NCBI RefSeq assembly: GCF_017313105.1
Contig: NZ_JAFLND010000002.1
Coordinates: 1-64,000 of the forward strand
Length of the DNA stretch: 64,000 nt
Reading direction: 5' to 3'
Origin: [Muricauda] lutisoli (nom. illeg.)
GTDB lineage: Bacteria > Bacteroidota > Bacteroidia > Flavobacteriales > Flavobacteriaceae
The notes beneath the pieces were generated by a model. It saw only the letters and a program-made list of their open reading frames with translations, did not search any database and was not told the origin of the DNA. A program made the position numbers and the translations under genes. Shown here piece after piece: positions 17,189 to 30,421 of the stretch; position 1 is the stretch's first letter, and the number at the start of each line of letters is the position of its first letter.

Positions 17189-17911
17189 TTACTGTATTGA
17201 TCCAGAGTAAGGATCAAAGTTTTCTGGGAGATACTTGGAAGTATCAAAACCCAAATCCATTTCTTCTTCCTCCATATAGTTGATGGAAGTAATCGCTATC
17301 ACATCGGTGTAAGGGTCAAAACCTTCTGGCAACAAATACTTGCTGTTTATTCCTAATTCAAGTTCAAATTCTTCCTCTACATATGAAATCGATTTTAAAT
17401 CCACATAAGCCTCATAAGGAGAGAAATCTTCTGGCAAGTAATCTTTGGTATCAAAACCTAGGTCCATGTCCTCTTCCTCCATATAATTGATGGAATGCAC
17501 ATCCACCACCTCTGTGTAAGGGTCAAAATTTTCCGGCAAATACTCTTTGGTATCAAAACCTAATGCGGGTTCAACTTTGTTTTCGAGGTATATGATGGAA
17601 TTCAAATCAAAATAGCTTTCGTAAGGATTAAAGTCCTCGGGAAGGTAATCAGTGGTGTCAAAACCTAAATCCAAATCAGGTTCTTCCTCTAAATACACTA
17701 TTTCGTTCAAATTCAATTCATACGATGCATAATCCGTCATCTCTGAAGTTGAATCGTTTATCTCAGCACTGATGTTCAATGTGGTTAAACTGTTCTCTAA
17801 ACTACCGGGTGTCTCGGATTGAACCTCGACAACCTTGGTATTTTGTTGGTCGTTTGCTATGGCGGTACTACTTAATAATACACTTCCATAAATTAATAAT
17901 AACTTGTTCAT
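17189..17911 (-). CDS. Exported acidic protein with five tandem ~34-residue repeats
   Basis: 240 residues from ATG 17911 (signal peptide MNKLLLIYGSVLLSSTAIA). The frame extends 57 codons upstream, but that part lacks a signal peptide and looks non-coding. After a polar linker (20-65) come five repeats at about 67-97, 102-132, 137-166, 171-201 and 206-235. Consensus: I-x-Y-[LMV]-E-E-E, spacer, L-G-[FI]-[DN], spacer, Y-L-P-E-[DNG]-F-[DNS]-P-Y. The invariant LPE-F-PY core and alternating acidic blocks suggest a repetitive periplasmic or surface ligand-binding or Ca2+-binding structure; that is inference. No C-terminal sorting domain is seen. I do not recognise a named family, though I believe similar LPExFxPY repeats occur in other flavobacteria. 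Confidence 0.8.
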   Translation of the reverse strand: MNKLLLIYGSVLLSSTAIANDQQNTKVVEVQSETPGSLENSLTTLNISAEINDSTSEMTDYASYELNLNEIVYLEEEPDLDLGFDTTDYLPEDFNPYESYFDLNSIIYLENKVEPALGFDTKEYLPENFDPYTEVVDVHSINYMEEEDMDLGFDTKDYLPEDFSPYEAYVDLKSISYVEEEFELELGINSKYLLPEGFDPYTDVIAITSINYMEEEEMDLGFDTSKYLPENFDPYSGSIQ

Positions 17912-18179
17912 TTTTTGATTGAATTTTATGATTGATGTTATGCCTATAAGACTACTCAAAACCCAAAACGTTACAGTCTTTAGGATTTTTTTACGAAATT
18001 TAAATACTCCCTGAGCCCAGCTATACAGGGCGATTCGCTCCAAACCATCAGTAAAACGCAGGACTCCCAAAGGTTGAGGCATTCCGTTAAAAAAATGACT
18101 GTTAATATATATTTAACAGTTAATTTTCGCGATTTTTAGGTTCTTTGAATCTTCTTACTTATTCAAACGGACTTAAAAA

Positions 18180-21730: not shown

Positions 21731-22330
21731 ATGATAGCCGTACTTACTGGAGACATCAAAAACTCCAAAGATCATGAAGCCAACATATGGTTGCCCGTAT
21801 TAAAAGCGGCATTGGATCATTATGGTTCCGAACCATCGGACTGGGAGATTTATAGGGGTGATAGCTTTCAGCTGCAAACCACTCCAGAACAAGCCCTGGA
21901 AGCCGCCATCTTTATAAAGGCCAGCATCAAACAAATACGACACTTGGATGTACGGATAGCTATTGGTCTGGGCAAAAAAAATCATACTGCAGCCAAAATC
22001 ACGGAGTCCAATGGGGAAGCTTTTGTAAATTCTGGCGAATGTTTCGACCAGTTAAAAAAACAGACCTTGGCCCTAAAATCCAACGCCGATGCTTTCAACG
22101 ATACCCTGAATACCATGCTGCAATTGGCCGCATTGACCATGGACAATTGGTTGCCCGCTACCGCTACCGTGGTTAAAAACACCATGGAACATCCCGAGGC
22201 CAACCAAAAAGAACTGGCAACCCTGCTGGGCAAATCCCAAAGCACCATAAGCGAGGCATTAATCAGGGCAGGATTTGACGAAGTCCAAAAAATGATTGAA
22301 TTTTACAGAACACAACTCGCCCAATTATGA
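21731..22330 (+). CDS. SatD-family protein with C-terminal HTH
   Basis: 199 residues. The start 'MIAVLTGDIKNSK' and the 'DWEIYRGDSFQL' and 'VRIAIGLG' blocks match the SatD family, whose N-terminal part resembles a nucleotide-cyclase-like ferredoxin fold. The C-terminus has a helix-turn-helix: 'NQKELATLLGKSQSTISEALIRAGF' pattern at about 155-179. It overlaps the next gene (DUF3307 membrane protein) by four nt (ATGA), an association I know for SatD-like proteins in many bacteria; its role is not established to my knowledge. Palindromes upstream suggest autoregulation. Confidence 0.8.
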   Translation: MIAVLTGDIKNSKDHEANIWLPVLKAALDHYGSEPSDWEIYRGDSFQLQTTPEQALEAAIFIKASIKQIRHLDVRIAIGLGKKNHTAAKITESNGEAFVNSGECFDQLKKQTLALKSNADAFNDTLNTMLQLAALTMDNWLPATATVVKNTMEHPEANQKELATLLGKSQSTISEALIRAGFDEVQKMIEFYRTQLAQL

Positions 22331-23058
22331 TGCTTTTAGCCCTAAAATTGATACTTGCCCATTTTATAGGAGATTTTGTTCTACAACCGGCACATTGGGT
22401 GAAAGACAAACTAAAAAACAAAGGCAAGTCAAAATATCTCTACTTTCATATCGGGGTGCATGCTTTGGCACTTTTGCTCCTATTGCAATTTCAATATTTG
22501 GGTGCCATTGCGGTTATTATTGTGACCCATTACCTCATCGATTTGGGAAAATTGTCACTCACTAATCCTAAAAATTACCGTTGGCTCTTTGTAGTGGATC
22601 AAGTGCTTCATTTGTTGGTGTTGTTCGGCATGCTGTATTGGATATTCCCTTTTACATTGGATTTCAAAACCATTTTCACGGAGAACACCCTACTGTTGAT
22701 TACTTTTTTGGTCTTTGTCACCTACGTATCCGGCATTGTTATGCGCATGTTTCTGGCACCGTATATTGATGAGGTGGCCAAAAGCGATGAACCTGGAGAG
22801 GGAGGTTCCCTTAAAAATGCCGGCACCTACATTGGCATGTTGGAACGCCTTTTTGTATTCGGGTTTATACTCATGCAGCAATGGGCCGCCATTGGATTGC
22901 TTATCGCTGCAAAATCCGTGTTCCGTTTCGGGGACCTGAACAAGGGCAAAAACCGAAAACTTACCGAGTATGTGCTCATTGGTACGCTGTTGAGTTTTGG
23001 ACTCGCCATACTTTCGGGCATGTTGTACCTCTATTTAACGGACCAGCTGGCCCCATAA
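22327..23058 (+). CDS. DUF3307 membrane protein
   Basis: 243 residues with about six or seven hydrophobic segments. The N-terminal 'LALKLILAHFIGDFVLQP' pattern, with HFIGDFVLQ at about 11-19, is the hallmark of DUF3307, followed by 'HIGVHALALL' and 'VTHYLIDLGK' with family His/Asp residues that could face the membrane interior. Function unknown. It is translationally coupled to the SatD-like gene through an ATGA overlap and ends in a terminator, so the two form a bicistronic unit. Confidence 0.85.
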   Translation: MMLLALKLILAHFIGDFVLQPAHWVKDKLKNKGKSKYLYFHIGVHALALLLLLQFQYLGAIAVIIVTHYLIDLGKLSLTNPKNYRWLFVVDQVLHLLVLFGMLYWIFPFTLDFKTIFTENTLLLITFLVFVTYVSGIVMRMFLAPYIDEVAKSDEPGEGGSLKNAGTYIGMLERLFVFGFILMQQWAAIGLLIAAKSVFRFGDLNKGKNRKLTEYVLIGTLLSFGLAILSGMLYLYLTDQLAP

Positions 23059-23796: not shown

Positions 23797-24303
23797 GTCC
23801 CTACCCTTAAAAGCAGACAGCTGATAGCTTAAAGCTAATACTCCCAACCTATTTCATTTTCAATTTTCAACTTTCCATTCCTTCACCTTTCACCTTTTCA
23901 CCCTTCACCCAACACCCCTTAACCCTTAACCTATCACCCTTTACCTTTCACCTTTCACCCCCATTGTAAATCACACCTTGCTTATTGATAATTGTCAACT
24001 GTTTATTGCCTATTGTAGATTTACCCTAATTTTTTAAGGTTTTCTAACAGCATGGTATCATAGATATTGATTACTTTGCAACCTCAACCTCCCTTAAATT
24101 TATTCCAACACGTATTGCAACTGTGACCCAATGTCATAGGATAACCTCCTTTACCTGTTAGTCAAAAAACTAAGAGGTTGCAAACGGACTGGCCATCCAA
24201 CGTCAAAATATGTGAAAGCCAAAAAAAGACACCAAAAATAATTGGACGAGATATCCGAAAATCGAAAGAGTAGGTTATTACTAACATCTTAAATTTTAAG
24301 ATA
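23797..24303. repeat. Non-coding spacer with pyrimidine-rich degenerate tandem words (copy A)
   Basis: 507 nt without a gene. 23860-23965 is built from degenerate CCTTTCACC / CCCTTAACC words. It is followed by TAATTGTCAACTG (23989-24001) and TTTTTTAAGGTTTT (24030-24043). The same three elements, in the same order, recur at 25505-25654 on the other side of the two genes 24304-25473. Not CRISPR: the units are short, unequal and lack spacers. Confidence 0.6.
24286..24302 (+). promoter_or_regulatory. Palindrome abutting the 24304 start codon
   Basis: ATCTTAAA (24286-24293) and TTTAAGAT (24295-24302) form an 8-bp inverted repeat around one central T, ending one base before the ATG. It could be an operator or a translation-blocking hairpin. 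Confidence 0.35.
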
Positions 24304-25044
24304 ATGTTCAATTACCGTAAAACACTTAACCTGATTCTTGCATTGGTTTTATTAGCCTCATGCACCGAAAATACAGCTGAAGAAAATGACATCGTAAAAT
24401 CATCGGATATAAATGAGACTTCTTTAACTATTCGCGAAAATGGCAAATTTCATAACGAAGCAATACTATCCATCTTGGACAAGAGTAAATTTAATGACCC
24501 ACTAATAACAACTGGTGAGGTCTTAAAACTAATGTACTATGAAATGTCAAGTAAGTATCCTGATAAATTTCACAAAACTGACCTATCTACACTTGATCAA
24601 GTTTTTGATTTTGACCAAAAGTATTCTGATTTCAAATTTGATTCCGAATTTTATGAATCCCTAAAATCTAAAATTGGTAAAAACAATATTGAGCAAAATA
24701 TTCTTTCTTTTTTGGACAAAGCTTTTTATGAGGGACAGGTAACAGAAAAGGAATTCGTTGCTTTTGATACCAAAACCGGTTCTTCAAACATACAAATCGA
24801 AATCTTTAAGTCTTATTATGAAGCTTCTGAAATTCTTTGGACGCAAGACGCTGGAAAGACATTTGCAATTAATCCAACCGCAAAATGTGATGCAGCAAGT
24901 CAAGTAATAATAGCCGATGCAGTCGGAGGAACCTTAATTGGCATATTAACCGGTGGAGCCGGTGGTCCGTTGGGAGGAGGAGCTGTTTCCCTTGCAGTGA
25001 GACAAGCACAAATTGAGGAGTATGGAGGAGGTTGCATCGAATAA
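24304..25044 (+). CDS. Lipoprotein with glycine-rich hydrophobic C-terminus
   Basis: 246 residues. Lipobox VLLASC (Cys20), then a charged, mostly helical middle (25-190) without recognised motifs. The last 50 residues change character: a Cys at about 198 (KCDAASQ), then a hydrophobic Gly-rich helix 'ADAVGGTLIGILTGGAGGPLGGGA' pattern (glycine zipper, about 206-230), and a final 'YGGGCIE' with a second Cys. Glycine zippers of this type occur in class II bacteriocins and membrane-inserting toxins, and similar C-termini occur in uncharacterised Bacteroidota proteins. The gene is AT-rich and 9 nt upstream of a 2-TM protein gene. Function unknown. Confidence 0.7.
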   Translation: MFNYRKTLNLILALVLLASCTENTAEENDIVKSSDINETSLTIRENGKFHNEAILSILDKSKFNDPLITTGEVLKLMYYEMSSKYPDKFHKTDLSTLDQVFDFDQKYSDFKFDSEFYESLKSKIGKNNIEQNILSFLDKAFYEGQVTEKEFVAFDTKTGSSNIQIEIFKSYYEASEILWTQDAGKTFAINPTAKCDAASQVIIADAVGGTLIGILTGGAGGPLGGGAVSLAVRQAQIEEYGGGCIE

Positions 25045-25053
25045 TTTTAATTA

Positions 25054-25473
25054 ATGCCCATGATAACCCTAAAACGAAAAAAAGACCTAATCGACCTACT
25101 GATACCTTATAGGTATTGTGTAAATGGCAGGGAAGGTCAAATAAAGGCGGGAGAAACGGTTCCACTAGAGTTTGAGGATGACTATGTTTTCTTTCAGCTC
25201 AAATACCTCTACTTCAAATCGCCCAAAATACTCTTGAAAAAAGATGTAAAAACGGAAATTACGGTAGGAACGGCTATCAGCAATTCGTTTATACTCACCG
25301 TGATTCCATTCTTGATTTTGATATTTATTCTAATCTCCTTTACCAAGCAAGACATAGGAATTTGGAACGATGTAGCTAAGATTATTGGTATAGCATACTT
25401 TGGTGTGCTTTGTTACTTCCCCACTTTTGGCTATAAAAAGTATCTAAGCATAGACATTGCATTTGAAGAATAA
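25054..25473 (+). CDS. Two-TM membrane protein, unknown
   Basis: 139 residues. A basic N-terminal part (MITLKRKKDLIDLLIPYRYCV) with a compact beta-like region to about residue 70, then two hydrophobic segments (about 83-102, FILTVIPFLILIFILISF, and 111-127, KIIGIAYFGVLCYFPTF). The soluble part probably faces the cytoplasm. It follows the Gly-rich lipoprotein by 9 nt and a weak terminator follows, so the two form one unit. A partner or immunity role is possible but is only an inference from position. Confidence 0.65.
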   Translation: MPMITLKRKKDLIDLLIPYRYCVNGREGQIKAGETVPLEFEDDYVFFQLKYLYFKSPKILLKKDVKTEITVGTAISNSFILTVIPFLILIFILISFTKQDIGIWNDVAKIIGIAYFGVLCYFPTFGYKKYLSIDIAFEE

Positions 25474-25477
25474 AAAT

Positions 25478-25505
25478 AAGGCGGTGCGTATGCTCCGCTT
25501 TTTTC
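25478..25505 (+). terminator. Probable terminator
   Basis: GCGG (25481-25484) pairs with CCGC (25495-25498), extended by AA(G)/(C)TT, then six T. Short stem, but correctly placed five nt after the 25473 stop. Confidence 0.5.
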
Positions 25506-25848
25506 TTTCATCTCCCCCCTCCCATTAAACTTTTATCAATTTACCTTTTACCCTTAACTCTTCACCCCTTCTTAATTGTCAACTGAATTGCCTTCGTACT
25601 TCCGACTTCATACTTCGTATTCATGGAAAACCCCCCAGTTTTTTTAAGGTTTTTGTACAACGCTGTTTTGTTAACATTTGGTAATTTGCTGACCGCAGCC
25701 CCTTTCCCCAAGAATTTTATAGCACCGATTTATGGCTTACAAATAGATGTCTGAATACATTAGTTATCTCCTGATTTTGGCATATAGAAGAGCATTTTAA
25801 TATTCAACAAGCTAGCAGCAATAAAAGTTAATCCATATAGAACAAAAA
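25506..25848. repeat. Non-coding spacer, copy B of the pyrimidine-rich unit
   Basis: 343 nt without a gene. Contains CT-rich words (25508-25570), TAATTGTCAACTG (25573-25585), a run of CTTCGTACTTCC / CTTCATACTTCG words (25591-25621) and TTTTTTAAGGTTTT (25640-25654). Two exact words of 13 and 14 nt are shared with copy A at 23989 and 24030. No promoter for the helicase gene is obvious. Confidence 0.6.
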
Positions 25849-28800
25849 ATGGAAATTAAATTACCAAATATTGAAAAACTAATCTACGAAAATGGAGACA
25901 ATCATATTAAACAATATTATGAGGATTCACCAACCTTAGATTTTGAATTCGTGCAAAGCACACCATTCATAATTTCTTCAAATGGAGAATCTTATTTCAT
26001 AACAAATAAAACTGATGATGAGATTCCCCAAGATTGCAACTATGCTTTACTTGCTACAAGAAAACCATCTAAGAAATATTTTTTAGCTAATAGCTTAAAA
26101 CTATATAGATGGATAAAACATCCCTCTTTTGAAGATTTAACTCCACAAGATGTATTGACTTCATGGAAAGGCAAATTCAAGTTCATTAAGGAAGATCTTG
26201 AGAATGACATAAAAGGATTAAGACCACCACAATTGGGAGCATTATATTCCATCTTAGCTCATACACAAAGCCCTGAAGATAAAGGGGTTGTTGTGATGCC
26301 TACTGGAACGGGCAAAACAGAAACAATGTTATCGACCTTAGTAGCCAATGAATGTGAGAAGCTCTTGGTGGCGGTTCCATCTGATTCACTGCGCACCCAA
26401 TTATCAAACAAATTCTCTAAGCTTGGATTGTTAAGGGAATTCGGAATGGTAGATGACACTTGCCATAATCCAATAGTTGGAGTAATACAATCAAAGTTTG
26501 AAAGCAAGGAAAGCCTATTAGAATTCATTACTAAAACAAATGTAGTGGTTACTACAATGAGTATTCTTGGGGGGGGCGATTACCAACATCAAATGGCTTT
26601 CTCCGATTCCTTTTCGCATCTATTTGTTGACGAAGCTCATCATTCAGCAGCTAGTACATGGAAGAAATTCATAAACCGATTCGATAAGGAGAAAGTGTTT
26701 CTATTTACAGCAACTCCTTTTAGGAACGATGGGAAGAATCTAGATGGCAAATTCATTTTCAACTTTTCACTTAAAGAAGCACAAAGACAAGGGTACTACA
26801 AACAGATAAATTATTTACCCATTAGAGAGTATGATAAGGATGAGGCTGACAAAAAAATAGCAGATAGAGCAGTAGAGCAATTGAGAGAAGATTTAGCTAA
26901 TGGATATCCACATATAATCATGGCAAGATGTGTTTCAAAAAGTAGGGCTAAAGATGTCTTTAAACATTATAAAGAGCATGAAGATTTAAACCCTGTTATT
27001 GTCTATACAGGAGTTCCTGGTCTAAAGGATAAGGTGAAAGCTATAAAGGCGAAACAACATGGTATTATTGTATGTGTAAACATGCTAGGAGAAGGGTTTG
27101 ACCTTCCAGAACTCAAAATTGCGGCCATACATGATGAAAGACAAAGCCTTCCAATTACACTTCAATTTGTTGGCAGGTTTACGAGAACATCTTTTGCAGA
27201 CCTTGGCAATGCAAGTTTCGTAACAAACATTGCTTATCCACCTATTCAACAAGAGCTTAATCATCTTTATGCTAAAAATGCGGACTGGAATTTACTACTT
27301 CCAAACATAAGCGAAGGTGCCACTGATAAGGAAATTAATTTCCAAGAATTTTTAGATGGATTCAATGATCTTGAGAACTCAAAAATACCTTTTCAGAATA
27401 TTAATCCTGCGATGAGTTCGGTTGTATTTCGTAATAATGGAGATGTTTGGAACCCTAAAAATTGGAAGGAAGGCATTAACAATATTGGAACTTATGAGCA
27501 TCAATTTAGTAGGATTAATAACGAGAAAGGCACGTTAGTAATTATCTTGGGCAAAGTTGATAAGGTAGAGTGGGGTGATTTCGATGTGGTACAAAATATG
27601 GATTGGAATATGATAGTAGTCCATTGGGACACTAGACCCAACAAGAATTTGGTTTTTATACATACTTCCCTAAAAAACCTATCATATACTAAACTTGTTA
27701 AATCAATATTTGGAGATGAGGTTTCCCAAATTAAAGGGATGGATGTGTTCAAAATCTTTCATGAAGTTAAAAGACTTACCTTATATAATGTTGGCGCAAG
27801 GAAAGGTACTGGCCGTGATATAAGCTTTCAATCCTTTTTTGGAAAGGGAGTGCAAGATGGAATAAAACTATTGGAGCAAGGAACTTTTATTAAAAATAAT
27901 TTCTTCGGAGTTGGTTATAAAGATGGAGAAAAAGTATCCCTGGGATGTTCTGTAAAGGGCAAGGTGTGGTCTTATTTAAGGGGTAATTTAGATGAATTAA
28001 TTAAATGGTGCAAGGATGTAGGGGATGTACTAATAAACCCAAATATCAATCCTAATACTGTTTTAGAAAACACTCTTATACCTAAAACTATCACGGTAAA
28101 ACCAGAAGTTACTCCAATTGCAGTTGAATGGCACCATGAGATGTTTCAACATGCTGAAAATAGATATAGGATTAGTATCAATGGGAGCACCTATGATCTT
28201 TCTAATTCTGAATTGAATATTGTGGAAAGCCCTAATCACGCTCCATTACGTTTTTGCTTCAAATGCGAAGATTATTGCATTGAATATGATTTAGTTTTGG
28301 GAGCTAAAATCGTTGATGGAAAAGAAGTTGCTTTCCATAAAGTCACAAAAAAATCTATTGAGAATCCTATTATTGAACATGGTAGTAAAAGAGAAAATTT
28401 AGGGAGCTTCTTACAAGAGTTCACCCCTATTTTTTGGTTTGCAGATGGTAGTCAATTATTTCAAAATAGCTATGTTGTTCCTAAGCCTTGGGTTGATGGA
28501 ATTTCATTGGATAATATTATACCAATGAATTGGGAAGGTGTTTCAATAGGAAAGGAGGCGCAAGGAATTGTACCTTATGAAACAGATTCAATACAATATC
28601 ATTTCATCAATCAGATTAGAGCTGATTATGAAATCATTTATGATGATGATGGGTCAGGAGAGATTGCTGATGTTATAGGAATTAATGATGGAGATAATAA
28701 AATTGATATTCACCTATTTCATTTGAAGTATGCTAAAAATGGACATACAGGAAACGACATAGGAAACTTCTATGAGGTATGTGGTCAGGCACAAAAATCT

Positions 28801-29091
28801 CTTAATTGGAAGTATCGTAACGGTAAAGACTTTTTTGACCATCTATTAAGAAGAGTAACTAAGAAAAAGAACGGTGCTACTTGTAGTAGAATAATAAAGG
28901 GTAGTGAAGATGATTTAGAACGTCTGTTAAATGCTGCGAAATGGACAAAGGAGATGAAGTTTCATATTTGCATAGTTCAACCTAGTTTAGTGAAAGGAGA
29001 GGGTTCTAATAATATTATGTTGCTCTTGGGAAACACCCATCATTATCTACATACAGTCGGAAATGTTGAATTAAAAGTTTATTCCAGCTAA
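25849..29091 (+). CDS. SF2 DEAD/DEAH helicase fused to a nuclease-like C-terminal domain; candidate defence protein
   Basis: 1080 residues. After a 120-residue N-terminal domain comes a complete superfamily 2 core: RPPQ (125-128), Walker A PTGTGKT (151-157), DEAH (261-264), TATP (287-290), motif V MLGEGFDLP (412-420) and motif VI QFVGRFTRT (439-447). The middle (450-900) has no motif I recognise. Near 930-965 a PD-(D/E)xK-like pattern appears: acidic DDDGSGEIAD, then DIHLFHLKY with the Lys, followed by 'FYEVCGQAQKSLNW', a block I associate with large restriction-like helicases. It is thus a single-polypeptide helicase-nuclease, plausibly anti-phage. It is AT-richer than its neighbours, has no partner gene, and sits between hemL and the spacer repeats. 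Confidence 0.85.
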   Translation: MEIKLPNIEKLIYENGDNHIKQYYEDSPTLDFEFVQSTPFIISSNGESYFITNKTDDEIPQDCNYALLATRKPSKKYFLANSLKLYRWIKHPSFEDLTPQDVLTSWKGKFKFIKEDLENDIKGLRPPQLGALYSILAHTQSPEDKGVVVMPTGTGKTETMLSTLVANECEKLLVAVPSDSLRTQLSNKFSKLGLLREFGMVDDTCHNPIVGVIQSKFESKESLLEFITKTNVVVTTMSILGGGDYQHQMAFSDSFSHLFVDEAHHSAASTWKKFINRFDKEKVFLFTATPFRNDGKNLDGKFIFNFSLKEAQRQGYYKQINYLPIREYDKDEADKKIADRAVEQLREDLANGYPHIIMARCVSKSRAKDVFKHYKEHEDLNPVIVYTGVPGLKDKVKAIKAKQHGIIVCVNMLGEGFDLPELKIAAIHDERQSLPITLQFVGRFTRTSFADLGNASFVTNIAYPPIQQELNHLYAKNADWNLLLPNISEGATDKEINFQEFLDGFNDLENSKIPFQNINPAMSSVVFRNNGDVWNPKNWKEGINNIGTYEHQFSRINNEKGTLVIILGKVDKVEWGDFDVVQNMDWNMIVVHWDTRPNKNLVFIHTSLKNLSYTKLVKSIFGDEVSQIKGMDVFKIFHEVKRLTLYNVGARKGTGRDISFQSFFGKGVQDGIKLLEQGTFIKNNFFGVGYKDGEKVSLGCSVKGKVWSYLRGNLDELIKWCKDVGDVLINPNINPNTVLENTLIPKTITVKPEVTPIAVEWHHEMFQHAENRYRISINGSTYDLSNSELNIVESPNHAPLRFCFKCEDYCIEYDLVLGAKIVDGKEVAFHKVTKKSIENPIIEHGSKRENLGSFLQEFTPIFWFADGSQLFQNSYVVPKPWVDGISLDNIIPMNWEGVSIGKEAQGIVPYETDSIQYHFINQIRADYEIIYDDDGSGEIADVIGINDGDNKIDIHLFHLKYAKNGHTGNDIGNFYEVCGQAQKSLNWKYRNGKDFFDHLLRRVTKKKNGATCSRIIKGSEDDLERLLNAAKWTKEMKFHICIVQPSLVKGEGSNNIMLLLGNTHHYLHTVGNVELKVYSS

Positions 29092-29143
29092 TAGCCAGTT
29101 AATAAAAATAGCTATAAGTAATGGCCCAGCACTCACCTGCTTC

Positions 29144-30421
29144 TTAAAACACCTTCCCCACCGCTTCAATGGTCTTATCCAAATCGGCATAGCTGAGGGC
29201 GTCGTTTAAAAAGTAGCTTTCAAAAGCAGAAGGCGGTAAGTATACCCCGTTCTCCAGCATCCCGTGGAAGTATTTCTTAAACGTTTCGTTGTTCCCCTTC
29301 GCCGAACTGGCAAAATCCACCACAGGTTCCTCCGTAAAGTGTACGGAGATCATACTGCCATAACGGTTGATCTGGTGGGTCACCCCTTTTTTGGTCAACA
29401 CCATGGCAATGCCTTTGTGCAGATACTCCGTTTTTTCGGCCAAACTGGTAAAAATTTCAGGTTGGTTGTTCAAGGCGGTGAGCATCGCCAGTCCGGCACT
29501 CATCGCCAAAGGGTTTCCGCTCAAAGTTCCTGCTTGGTACACGGGGCCTTCGGGTGCCAAATGTGCCATGATCTCGGCCCGGGCCGCGAACGCTCCAACG
29601 GGCAGTCCACCACCGATCACTTTCCCGAACATTACAATATCGGCATCAATGCCCAAGGCTTCTTGCGCCCCTCCTTTTCCCAAACGAAAGCCTGTCATCA
29701 CCTCATCAAACAACAACAAAATGCCTTCTTGAGTACAGAGTTCGCGCAATCCTTTTATAAATTCCTCTTTGGGGATAATACAACCCATGTTCCCTGCCAC
29801 GGGTTCCAAAATAATAGCAGCAATTTCACCTTTATTGGCTTCCACCAAGGCTTTTACGCCTTCCAAATCGTTGTAATCGGCCAATAGCGTATCCTTGGCC
29901 GTGCCCTGCGTTACCCCAGGGCTGTTGGGGCTACCAAACGTAACGGCACCGCTTCCCGCTTGTATTAAAAAAGAGTCGGAGTGGCCGTGGTAGCAACCCG
30001 CAAATTTGATGATTTTTTCCTTGCCCGTGTACCCACGCGCGAGGCGTACCGCACTCATACATGCTTCGGTTCCGCTGTTCACAAAACGGATTTTGTCAAT
30101 GTTCGGCACCATGGAAACCGCCAGTTTAGCAATTTCTGTCTCAATCTCGGTGGGCGTTCCAAAGGAAGTTCCTTTTTTGGCCTTATCGATCACCGCATCG
30201 ATCACCGGTTGGTAGGCATGACCCAAAATTAGCGGACCCCACGAAGCAATGTAGTCGATGAGTTGGTTACCGTCTTCATCGTACAGGTAGGCCCCTTTGG
30301 CCTCCTTGATAAAAATAGGGTCGCCCCCAACGGCTTTAAACGCTCGTACAGGTGAATTTACTCCTCCGGGAATGTATTTTTTGGCCTCTGCGAACAAGGC
30401 GCTGCTTCGTTGGTAGATCAT
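29144..30421 (-). CDS. hemL: Glutamate-1-semialdehyde 2,1-aminomutase
   Basis: 425 residues. Fold type I PLP enzyme that converts glutamate-1-semialdehyde to 5-aminolevulinate in the C5 haem pathway. N-terminal '[11 protein letters not shown]' and '[14 protein letters not shown]' are typical of HemL; PLP contacts '[15 protein letters not shown]' (115-129), 'FDEVMTGFR' (238-246) and the Schiff-base Lys267 in '[15 protein letters not shown]'; '[16 protein letters not shown]' follows. Length is normal. No other hem gene is nearby. Its leader region is occupied by hairpin-rich repeats, one copy of which carries a candidate -7 element. Confidence 0.97.

Follow-up and report, generated by a model that had tools for sequence, protein, structure and literature searches.

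The gene at positions 25849-29091 of the window, the 64,000-nucleotide stretch of [Muricauda] lutisoli DNA analysed here (contig NZ_JAFLND010000002.1, positions 1 to 64,000), encodes a helicase-nuclease that is probably (at about 0.68) a single-chain ATP-dependent DNA translocase-nuclease, which serves by itself as an anti-phage effector and moves between genomes as defence cargo. This defence reading draws on the anatomy of the protein, the insert that carries its gene, the chromosomal site of that insert and the genes found beside its relatives, and is well supported though not proven. In its way of working the protein goes with the helicase-nuclease defence proteins, as a variant within that group. 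The gene and its parts are as follows.

25849-29091 (+): helicase-nuclease gene with an ATG start and an intact open reading frame (ORF), encoding a 1080-residue protein made of a superfamily 2 (SF2) helicase and a PD-(D/E)XK-type nuclease
26215-27288 (+): helicase core, residues ~123-480, with Walker A K156, DEAH 261-264, TAT 287-289 and R443/R446
27289-28500 (+): middle region, residues ~481-884, conserved in the family and without a Pfam match
28501-29088 (+): nuclease domain, residues ~885-1080, a predicted PD-(D/E)XK core with invariant residues

The original prediction, made from the letters of the DNA, had claimed a complete set of SF2 motifs, of which the following are in place: Walker A at P151-T157 with its lysine at K156, DEAH at D261-H264, TAT at 287-289, and Q439, G442, R443 and R446 of motif VI. 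K156, D261, E262 and R446 are invariant in all 37 sequences compared, the window's included. On the 1080-residue protein Pfam places ResIII at 123-292 (E=1.1e-23), with DEAD (3.6e-11) and SWI2_SNF2 also matched and a weak Helicase_C match at 394-447 that falls under the curated cut-off (E=0.002). The nearest solved folds of the core are RadD (6jde, Z 23.3) and then RIG-I-like, XPB-like and other SF2 motors, and its best PDB match by sequence is SauUSI (7clg). The gene is under purifying selection, with ratios of nonsynonymous to synonymous substitution (dN/dS) of 0.075, 0.087 and 0.089 against three close relatives; by part, the ratio is 0.055 to 0.084 in the helicase, 0.069 to 0.080 in the middle region and 0.048 to 0.088 in the nuclease, with looser constraint on the first 122 residues (0.131 to 0.232).

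The sequence elements from which a nuclease had been proposed are likewise found, with EIAD at 938-941, HLKY at 958-961 and the YEVCGQAQKS block at 975-984. AlphaFold2, given 12 sequences, modelled the whole protein with a mean predicted local distance difference test score (pLDDT) of 74, and residues 875-1080 alone with 89.5. In the model a helix (915-926) is followed by strands at 929-932, 942-947 and 951-959, a helix at 972-984 and a late strand at 1035-1044; D941 heads the second strand and H958-x-K960 closes the third. The order of the domain is predicted to be that of a PD-(D/E)XK nuclease core (alpha-beta3-alpha-beta) with His replacing the D/E of the motif. The nuclease fold expected at 930-965 lies within the high-confidence prediction over 875-1080, and D941, H958 and K960 are invariant there. 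Fourteen positions are invariant in 24 aligned C-terminal domains (W895, E903, D933, E938, D941, H958, K960, Q980, A981, W987, R1002, S1013, Q1044 and P1045), and E903, D933, E938, D941, H958, K960, Q980, W987 and R1002 are also invariant in all 37 full-length sequences. A truncated viral copy outside the 37 (L133) has lost W987 and kept E938, D941, H958 and K960. The position before x-K, D/E in the motif, is His in 37 of 37 sequences; this invariant His of H-x-K is the oddest feature of the protein and may tune metal use or activity.

When VIA-align was run on the best 999 chains from Foldseek with the nuclease-domain model, the top matches were HamA of the Hachiman system (8vxy, Z 8.9, 3.8 A over 154 residues) and CdiA-CT (8.8), with FokI (7.9) and Nt.BspD6I (7.4) further down; the first 19 rows are entries which we take to be nucleases or nuclease toxins. 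Since a Z near 9 discriminates weakly, the fold class rests on the full match list and the conserved residues together. Foldseek in BFVD with the same model returned one uncharacterised phage protein (4.4e-4), and the domain has no match in the PDB by sequence at E<=1. A short ORF of ~128 aa on Rhizobium plasmids (L179:4001-4381) is similar to just the nuclease core (37% across query residues 73-204), and many Rhizobium records are among the matches.

Between motor and nuclease lies the long unassigned stretch that had been pointed out behind the SF2 motifs: ~400 conserved residues (481-884) without a Pfam match, within a region (481-1080) for which Pfam returns zero families at E<=1. Compared with the PDB by sequence, the middle region gives nothing convincing, only a chance glutaredoxin at E=0.82. 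S523, W575, G649, G665, G699, G704, W707 and W720 are invariant in all 18 members. These ~400 residues, we propose, are likely a DNA-sensing region or clamp.

The helicase-nuclease gene is mobile cargo and stands on an insert at a variable site, the elements of which are listed here.

23801-29143 (no strand): low-GC (35.2%) insert of ~5.3 kb between an arsC-like gene and hemL
24304-25044 (+): lipoprotein-like ORF of 246 aa (class by eye) on the insert, without a relative in the other loci compared
25054-25473 (+): ORF of 139 aa on the insert, without a relative in the other loci compared
29144-30421 (-): class-III aminotransferase gene, presumably hemL and so called here, at the right edge of the variable site

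The gene had been described as AT-richer than its neighbours, and at 34.6% GC, against 42.7% in the window outside 23801-29143, it is AT-richer than every stretch of equal length outside the island (0 of 523 as AT-rich). The nearest congener by hemL (G016, with hemL 98.8% and the arsC-like gene 97.0% identical) provides a natural empty site, with 132 bp where the window has 23801-29143, so that either the gene came with two small ORFs on a 5.3 kb insert or G016 has undergone a clean loss; the left edge is uncertain by ~170 bp because 23871-23971 matches the same linker at 70%. Twenty of the genus's 35 other genomes were surveyed for the site: hemL is present in all 20, the gene at 22327-23058 in 19 (one of them weak, at 36%) and both on one contig in 16; within these 16 loci (L136-L151) the arsC-like gene stood between the two flanking genes in nine and was not found there in seven. 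Ten low-GC ORFs from six of the 16 loci were scanned with PADLOC. G011 carries three Thoeris-like TIR genes (ThsB, 2.6e-140, 6.4e-77 and 5.1e-68) and a SLOG gene, G017 a PDC-S46 gene (1.4e-252) and G001 a gene for a HEC-04/PtuA-like AAA ATPase (6.2e-34), all located between the arsC-like gene and hemL; G018 has an SMC/AAA-like gene without a PADLOC match, and none of the ORFs scanned from G005 and G013 is recognised by PADLOC. The matches in G011, G017 and G001 indicate that in 3 or more of the 16 congeners the site has taken up defence genes other than the helicase-nuclease.

The distribution of the gene is patchy. It is present in 2 of 59 genomes (its own counted), and 34 of the 36 genus genomes searched are without it; in the second carrier, the congener G028, the copy is 57% identical and hemL 90%. 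At 89% identity the Aquimarina muelleri copy is the closest found, ahead of copies in an uncultured Aquimarina (82%), Maribacter (80%), Polaribacter (78%) and Kordia (77%), and hemL is less alike than the helicase-nuclease both in A. muelleri (79% vs 89%) and in the other Aquimarina (78% vs 82%). At family level 48 of 397 genomes match at E<=0.001 and 7 of 397 (own counted) align over >850 residues, and at phylum level 7 of 395 genomes (own counted) match at E<=1e-30. Further afield, matches occur in 155 plasmid records, 54 of which cover 80% or more of the query in a single place, and in 293 phage records, two of them with coverage of at least 80%. The E. coli relative is matched in 15 of 5426 E. 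coli genomes, with coverage of at least 80% in 14. In a first viral scan with the whole alignment, 80 loci (L043-L122) matched over the helicase part only and were left out; a scan with the E. coli relative as query found none. The tree of the family has several long-branched rows and some unsafe joins, and was used only for the nearest relatives of the window's gene. In two records of Acinetobacter phage MD-2021a (H41, H42) a relative annotated as UvrB matches query residues 124-1078 at 29% identity and 88% coverage. The copies on a Marivirga plasmid (L037) and a Streptococcus dysgalactiae plasmid (L180) are split into several annotated ORFs.

The gene had also been described as having no methyltransferase or specificity partner, and hence as something other than an ordinary type I or III restriction enzyme. 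A search of the whole genome gave no match to Methylase_S or N6_N4_Mtase (methyltransferase families beyond those named here were not searched), and a single, marginal match to N6_Mtase, which lies on a different contig. Two genes match C5-type DNA_methylase: the first is again on a different contig, and the second, at 593 kb of the contig that holds the window, is over 500 kb from it. No linked partner was found, so the protein does not have the make-up of a type I or III enzyme. However, with two C5-type methylases in the genome, it is harder to claim that the host has no methylation mark. A comparison of the loci of the six closest copies (the window and L003-L007), covering 112 ORFs of 100 aa or more within ~10 kb (a shorter span in L003), found no gene but the helicase-nuclease common to any two loci at E<=1e-5, and this lack of a second common gene strengthens the stand-alone claim. 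The claim is good for this genome and the five relatives closest to it but not for the whole family, in which some E. coli copies stand behind type I restriction-modification (RM) genes and others belong to a trio of nuclease, UvrD and helicase genes. Ten flanking genes of the five nearest relatives were scanned with PADLOC: one relative adjoins a defence reverse transcriptase (RT_UG14, 3.1e-216) and a further one has a weak PD-T7-4 match in a flanking gene (7.1e-10). A phosphoribosyl-pyrophosphokinase-like gene by L006 matches PsyrT (2.7e-6), and on the other flank of L004 a methyltransferase matches mad2 (2.3e-15); both are read as general domain matches.

The neighbourhoods of distant relatives add further defence genes. 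Thirteen plasmid neighbourhoods were read, with flanks of 8 or 10 kb and incomplete gene tables. The Vibrio relative has a type I RM set ahead of it, with two genes between, and an NsnB/HEC-like ATPase as well; that of Methylocystis lies near Lamassu LmuB (2.7e-91) and LmuA (1.3e-13), that of Sinorhizobium near BREX-type DUF1819 and WYL genes, that of Burkholderia near a type I M subunit and that of Comamonas near an AbiEi antitoxin, while the Acinetobacter plasmid holds a gamma-mobile-trio element with a SIR2 gene. On a Mesorhizobium plasmid the nuclease-UvrD-helicase trio and a complete BREX-1 set run divergently, and the trio is also present on Phaeobacter and Paracoccus plasmids. The Marivirga, Bernardetia, Klebsiella and E. 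coli plasmid tables name no defence system, and the E. coli plasmid carries toxin and immunity genes of contact-dependent inhibition (CDI) type. Among four E. coli chromosomal loci read, two have an unbroken restriction-modification-specificity (R-M-S) operon with the family gene 6 or 12 bp behind hsdS; of the remaining two, one has an unbroken hsdS (12 bp away) with broken M and R genes and the other only remnants of R and M. On the viral contig L135, Septu PtuA (1111.6 bits) and PtuB (5.3e-108) stand ahead of the family gene, as do HsdS-like and HsdM-like genes (by eye). A fixed housekeeping context, which would have spoken for another role, was not seen among the homologues; they are patchy, on plasmids, at a variable site, and beside RM, BREX, Lamassu, Septu and defence reverse transcriptase genes.

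Two arrangements in these neighbourhoods deserve description in their own right. On alphaproteobacterial plasmids (L158, L160, L153, L155 and L156) the relative is the last gene of a trio of PD-(D/E)XK nuclease, UvrD helicase and SF2 helicase, which is placed behind TerB-N, ATPase and DEAD genes in Paracoccus and whose UvrD gene is absent from the listed Sinorhizobium table; the trio is possibly a multi-gene system of its own. In three of the E. coli loci (L161, L163 and L164) the family gene lies at a tRNA-Leu island, beginning 6 or 12 bp past hsdS; behind it come a functionally unassigned gene of 1.3 kb and an integrase.

Defence by a helicase-nuclease occurs repeatedly in one-protein or two-protein form, as in Hna, Nhi, Hachiman and SauUSI, and in SauUSI the nuclease is an N-terminal phospholipase D (PLD) domain. 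The present protein resembles that type IV enzyme (7clg) as a stand-alone SF2 motor joined to a nuclease and in the best PDB sequence match of its motor, but Pfam finds no PLD domain in it at E<=1, and identity with SauUSI was rejected. Hna of Sinorhizobium meliloti is a single protein of 845 aa with a DinG/XPD-like SF2 helicase and a C-terminal PD-(D/E)XK nuclease, and acts as a 3'-5' exonuclease on single-stranded DNA (ssDNA) which an ATP-bound dimer restrains and phage SSB releases (PMC13381803). Both are single chains with an SF2 helicase ahead of a C-terminal PD-(D/E)XK nuclease and no partner, whereas the present protein differs in its 1080 aa, its ResIII/RadD-like core, its 400-residue middle region and its H-x-K motif. 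Identity with Hna, the first candidate from the literature, was rejected on length and helicase type: the Hna-type core, Helicase_C_2, is not found in this protein at E<=1 and is seen in one of 18 members (E=0.0089). The 41 PDB sequence matches include no Hna chain, the presence of Hna entries in that library being unchecked.

In Hachiman, HamAB is activated by free ssDNA ends (PMC12278908). The likeness lies in a helicase coupled to a nuclease of restriction endonuclease fold; HamA leads the nuclease domain's fold list at Z 8.9, level with CdiA-CT (8.8). In contrast to Hachiman there is one protein and not two; HamB is Ski2-like and HamA uses E-x-K (PMC12278908). An origin of the nuclease domain from HamA is not supported, as hhalign against seven HamA sequences gave a probability of 0.2%, and PF08878 (HamA) has no match in this genome. 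PbeA is the best PADLOC match by E-value (6.1e-14) and is matched by 17 of 18 members, but it was set aside because the match covers the helicase part only, at positions 267-456 of the 672 in the profile. With the PADLOC candidate PDC-S71 the nuclease domain shares homology, 18 of the 24 C-terminal domains matching it at E<=0.1 and the best of them at 3.9e-12, yet a full PDC-S71 was rejected since only positions 401-547 of 589 match (E=2e-8), with helicase and middle region outside; a genuine PDC-S71 protein, sought in 198 genomes, brought up only this gene and one relative. A helicase-nuclease related to type-1 BREX shares the SF2 motor and C-terminal PD-(D/E)XK domain and is accompanied by a DUF499 ATPase and an N6 methyltransferase (PMC12839542); here, unlike that system, no linked N6 methyltransferase was found (DUF499 was not searched). 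Judged by these comparisons of sequence, the protein is not Hna, Hachiman, SauUSI or RadD, nor is it a restriction enzyme of type I or III or a full-length match to PDC-S71 or PbeA. A word search of the open-licence literature, with most subscription journals and supplementary tables outside its scope, returned no published family name.

A motor-nuclease fusion without a linked methyltransferase or specificity gene fits the detection of some feature of invading DNA followed by its degradation, and the same absence makes DNA structure or foreign base chemistry a more likely basis for distinguishing self from non-self than a dedicated host mark. The helicase core would engage phage DNA of abnormal structure, such as free ends, junctions of ssDNA and double-stranded DNA, or replication and recombination intermediates. 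ATP hydrolysis would then move the DNA past the fused C-terminal nuclease, or switch that nuclease on, and the H-x-K variant of the PD-(D/E)XK site would cut DNA in cis. The outcome would be selective loss of phage DNA or abortive infection, perhaps the latter. The placing of the trigger in phage replication or recombination intermediates is by analogy with Hna and Hachiman. A broader proposal, to which we give somewhat less than an even chance, is that the protein represents one branch of an unnamed, widespread single-gene defence family in which a sensor motor is joined to a HamA-like H-x-K nuclease, a one-protein counterpart of Hachiman that elsewhere serves as a second line behind type I restriction or BREX operons.

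The main rival to a structural trigger is a type IV-like restriction enzyme, in which the middle region would recognise modified phage bases, as SauUSI does. Type IV enzymes are typically stand-alone genes without a methyltransferase, SauUSI 7clg is the best solved sequence match of the core, and the PADLOC mREase_IV models match 17 of 18 members. However, those matches cover only the helicase part of this protein, in which Pfam recognises neither a PLD domain nor a reader of modified bases, and we consider such an enzyme unlikely, if still a serious competitor. Somewhat harder to credit is an accessory of restriction or BREX loci that degrades DNA cut or stalled by its partner and is alone here only incidentally. 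This would account for the family gene lying 6 or 12 bp after hsdS in three of the four E. coli chromosomal loci read, for its place behind a type I RM set in Vibrio and for the trio divergent from BREX-1 in Mesorhizobium, but not for a genome without a Methylase_S or N6_N4_Mtase match, nor for six close copies without a common partner. An enzyme of DNA repair or recombination, with a RadD/XPB-like helicase and a processing nuclease, carried as accessory cargo without an anti-phage role, is the most doubtful of these alternatives. RadD (Z 23.3) is the nearest helicase fold, with XPB-like motors behind, and one relative adjoins radA on a Bernardetia plasmid; however, the NCBIfam RadD model NF053632 scores 38.6 bits against a cut-off of 720, on which RadD itself was rejected, the gene is absent from 34 of 36 genus genomes, its variable site takes defence genes in congeners, and its six close copies have no common neighbour.

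Several observations weigh against a self-sufficient anti-phage nuclease. The replacement of D/E-x-K by H-x-K could mean altered or lost cleavage; the top Z of 8.9 is barely above the 7 to 8 usual for models without a clear match, and Foldseek with the nuclease domain finds nothing in the PDB at E<=0.001 (best FokI, 0.26). A host mark from an unlinked C5-type methylase is possible. The comparison with hemL gives no signal of transfer for Maribacter (helicase 80%, hemL 86%) or Kordia (77%, 78%), and the Polaribacter hemL match, at 48%, may be a paralogue. For three of the five nearest relatives, the two adjoining genes give no PADLOC match that convinces. Among the plasmid neighbourhoods, a clearly named defence system is present in six of 13 (Vibrio, Methylocystis, Sinorhizobium, Mesorhizobium, Burkholderia and Comamonas), a count made without a baseline of random plasmid genes, and six of 13 are without one in their incomplete gene tables (L037-L040, L155 and L156).

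Elsewhere in the window, an ORF of 297 aa at 17189-18082 (-) has an acidic repeat, with a motif around LGFDT..YLPE.F.PY, that occurs several times, as noted by eye.

The gene belongs to a family that has at least one partner-free branch, is spread over phyla and plasmids, keeps an invariant and odd H-x-K site and, in some E. coli, lies directly behind hsdS. Such a family would be easily testable in laboratory strains and would show how a lone motor-nuclease separates phage from host DNA without a linked methylase. The hemL site is also a usable place for finding more defence genes in the genus.

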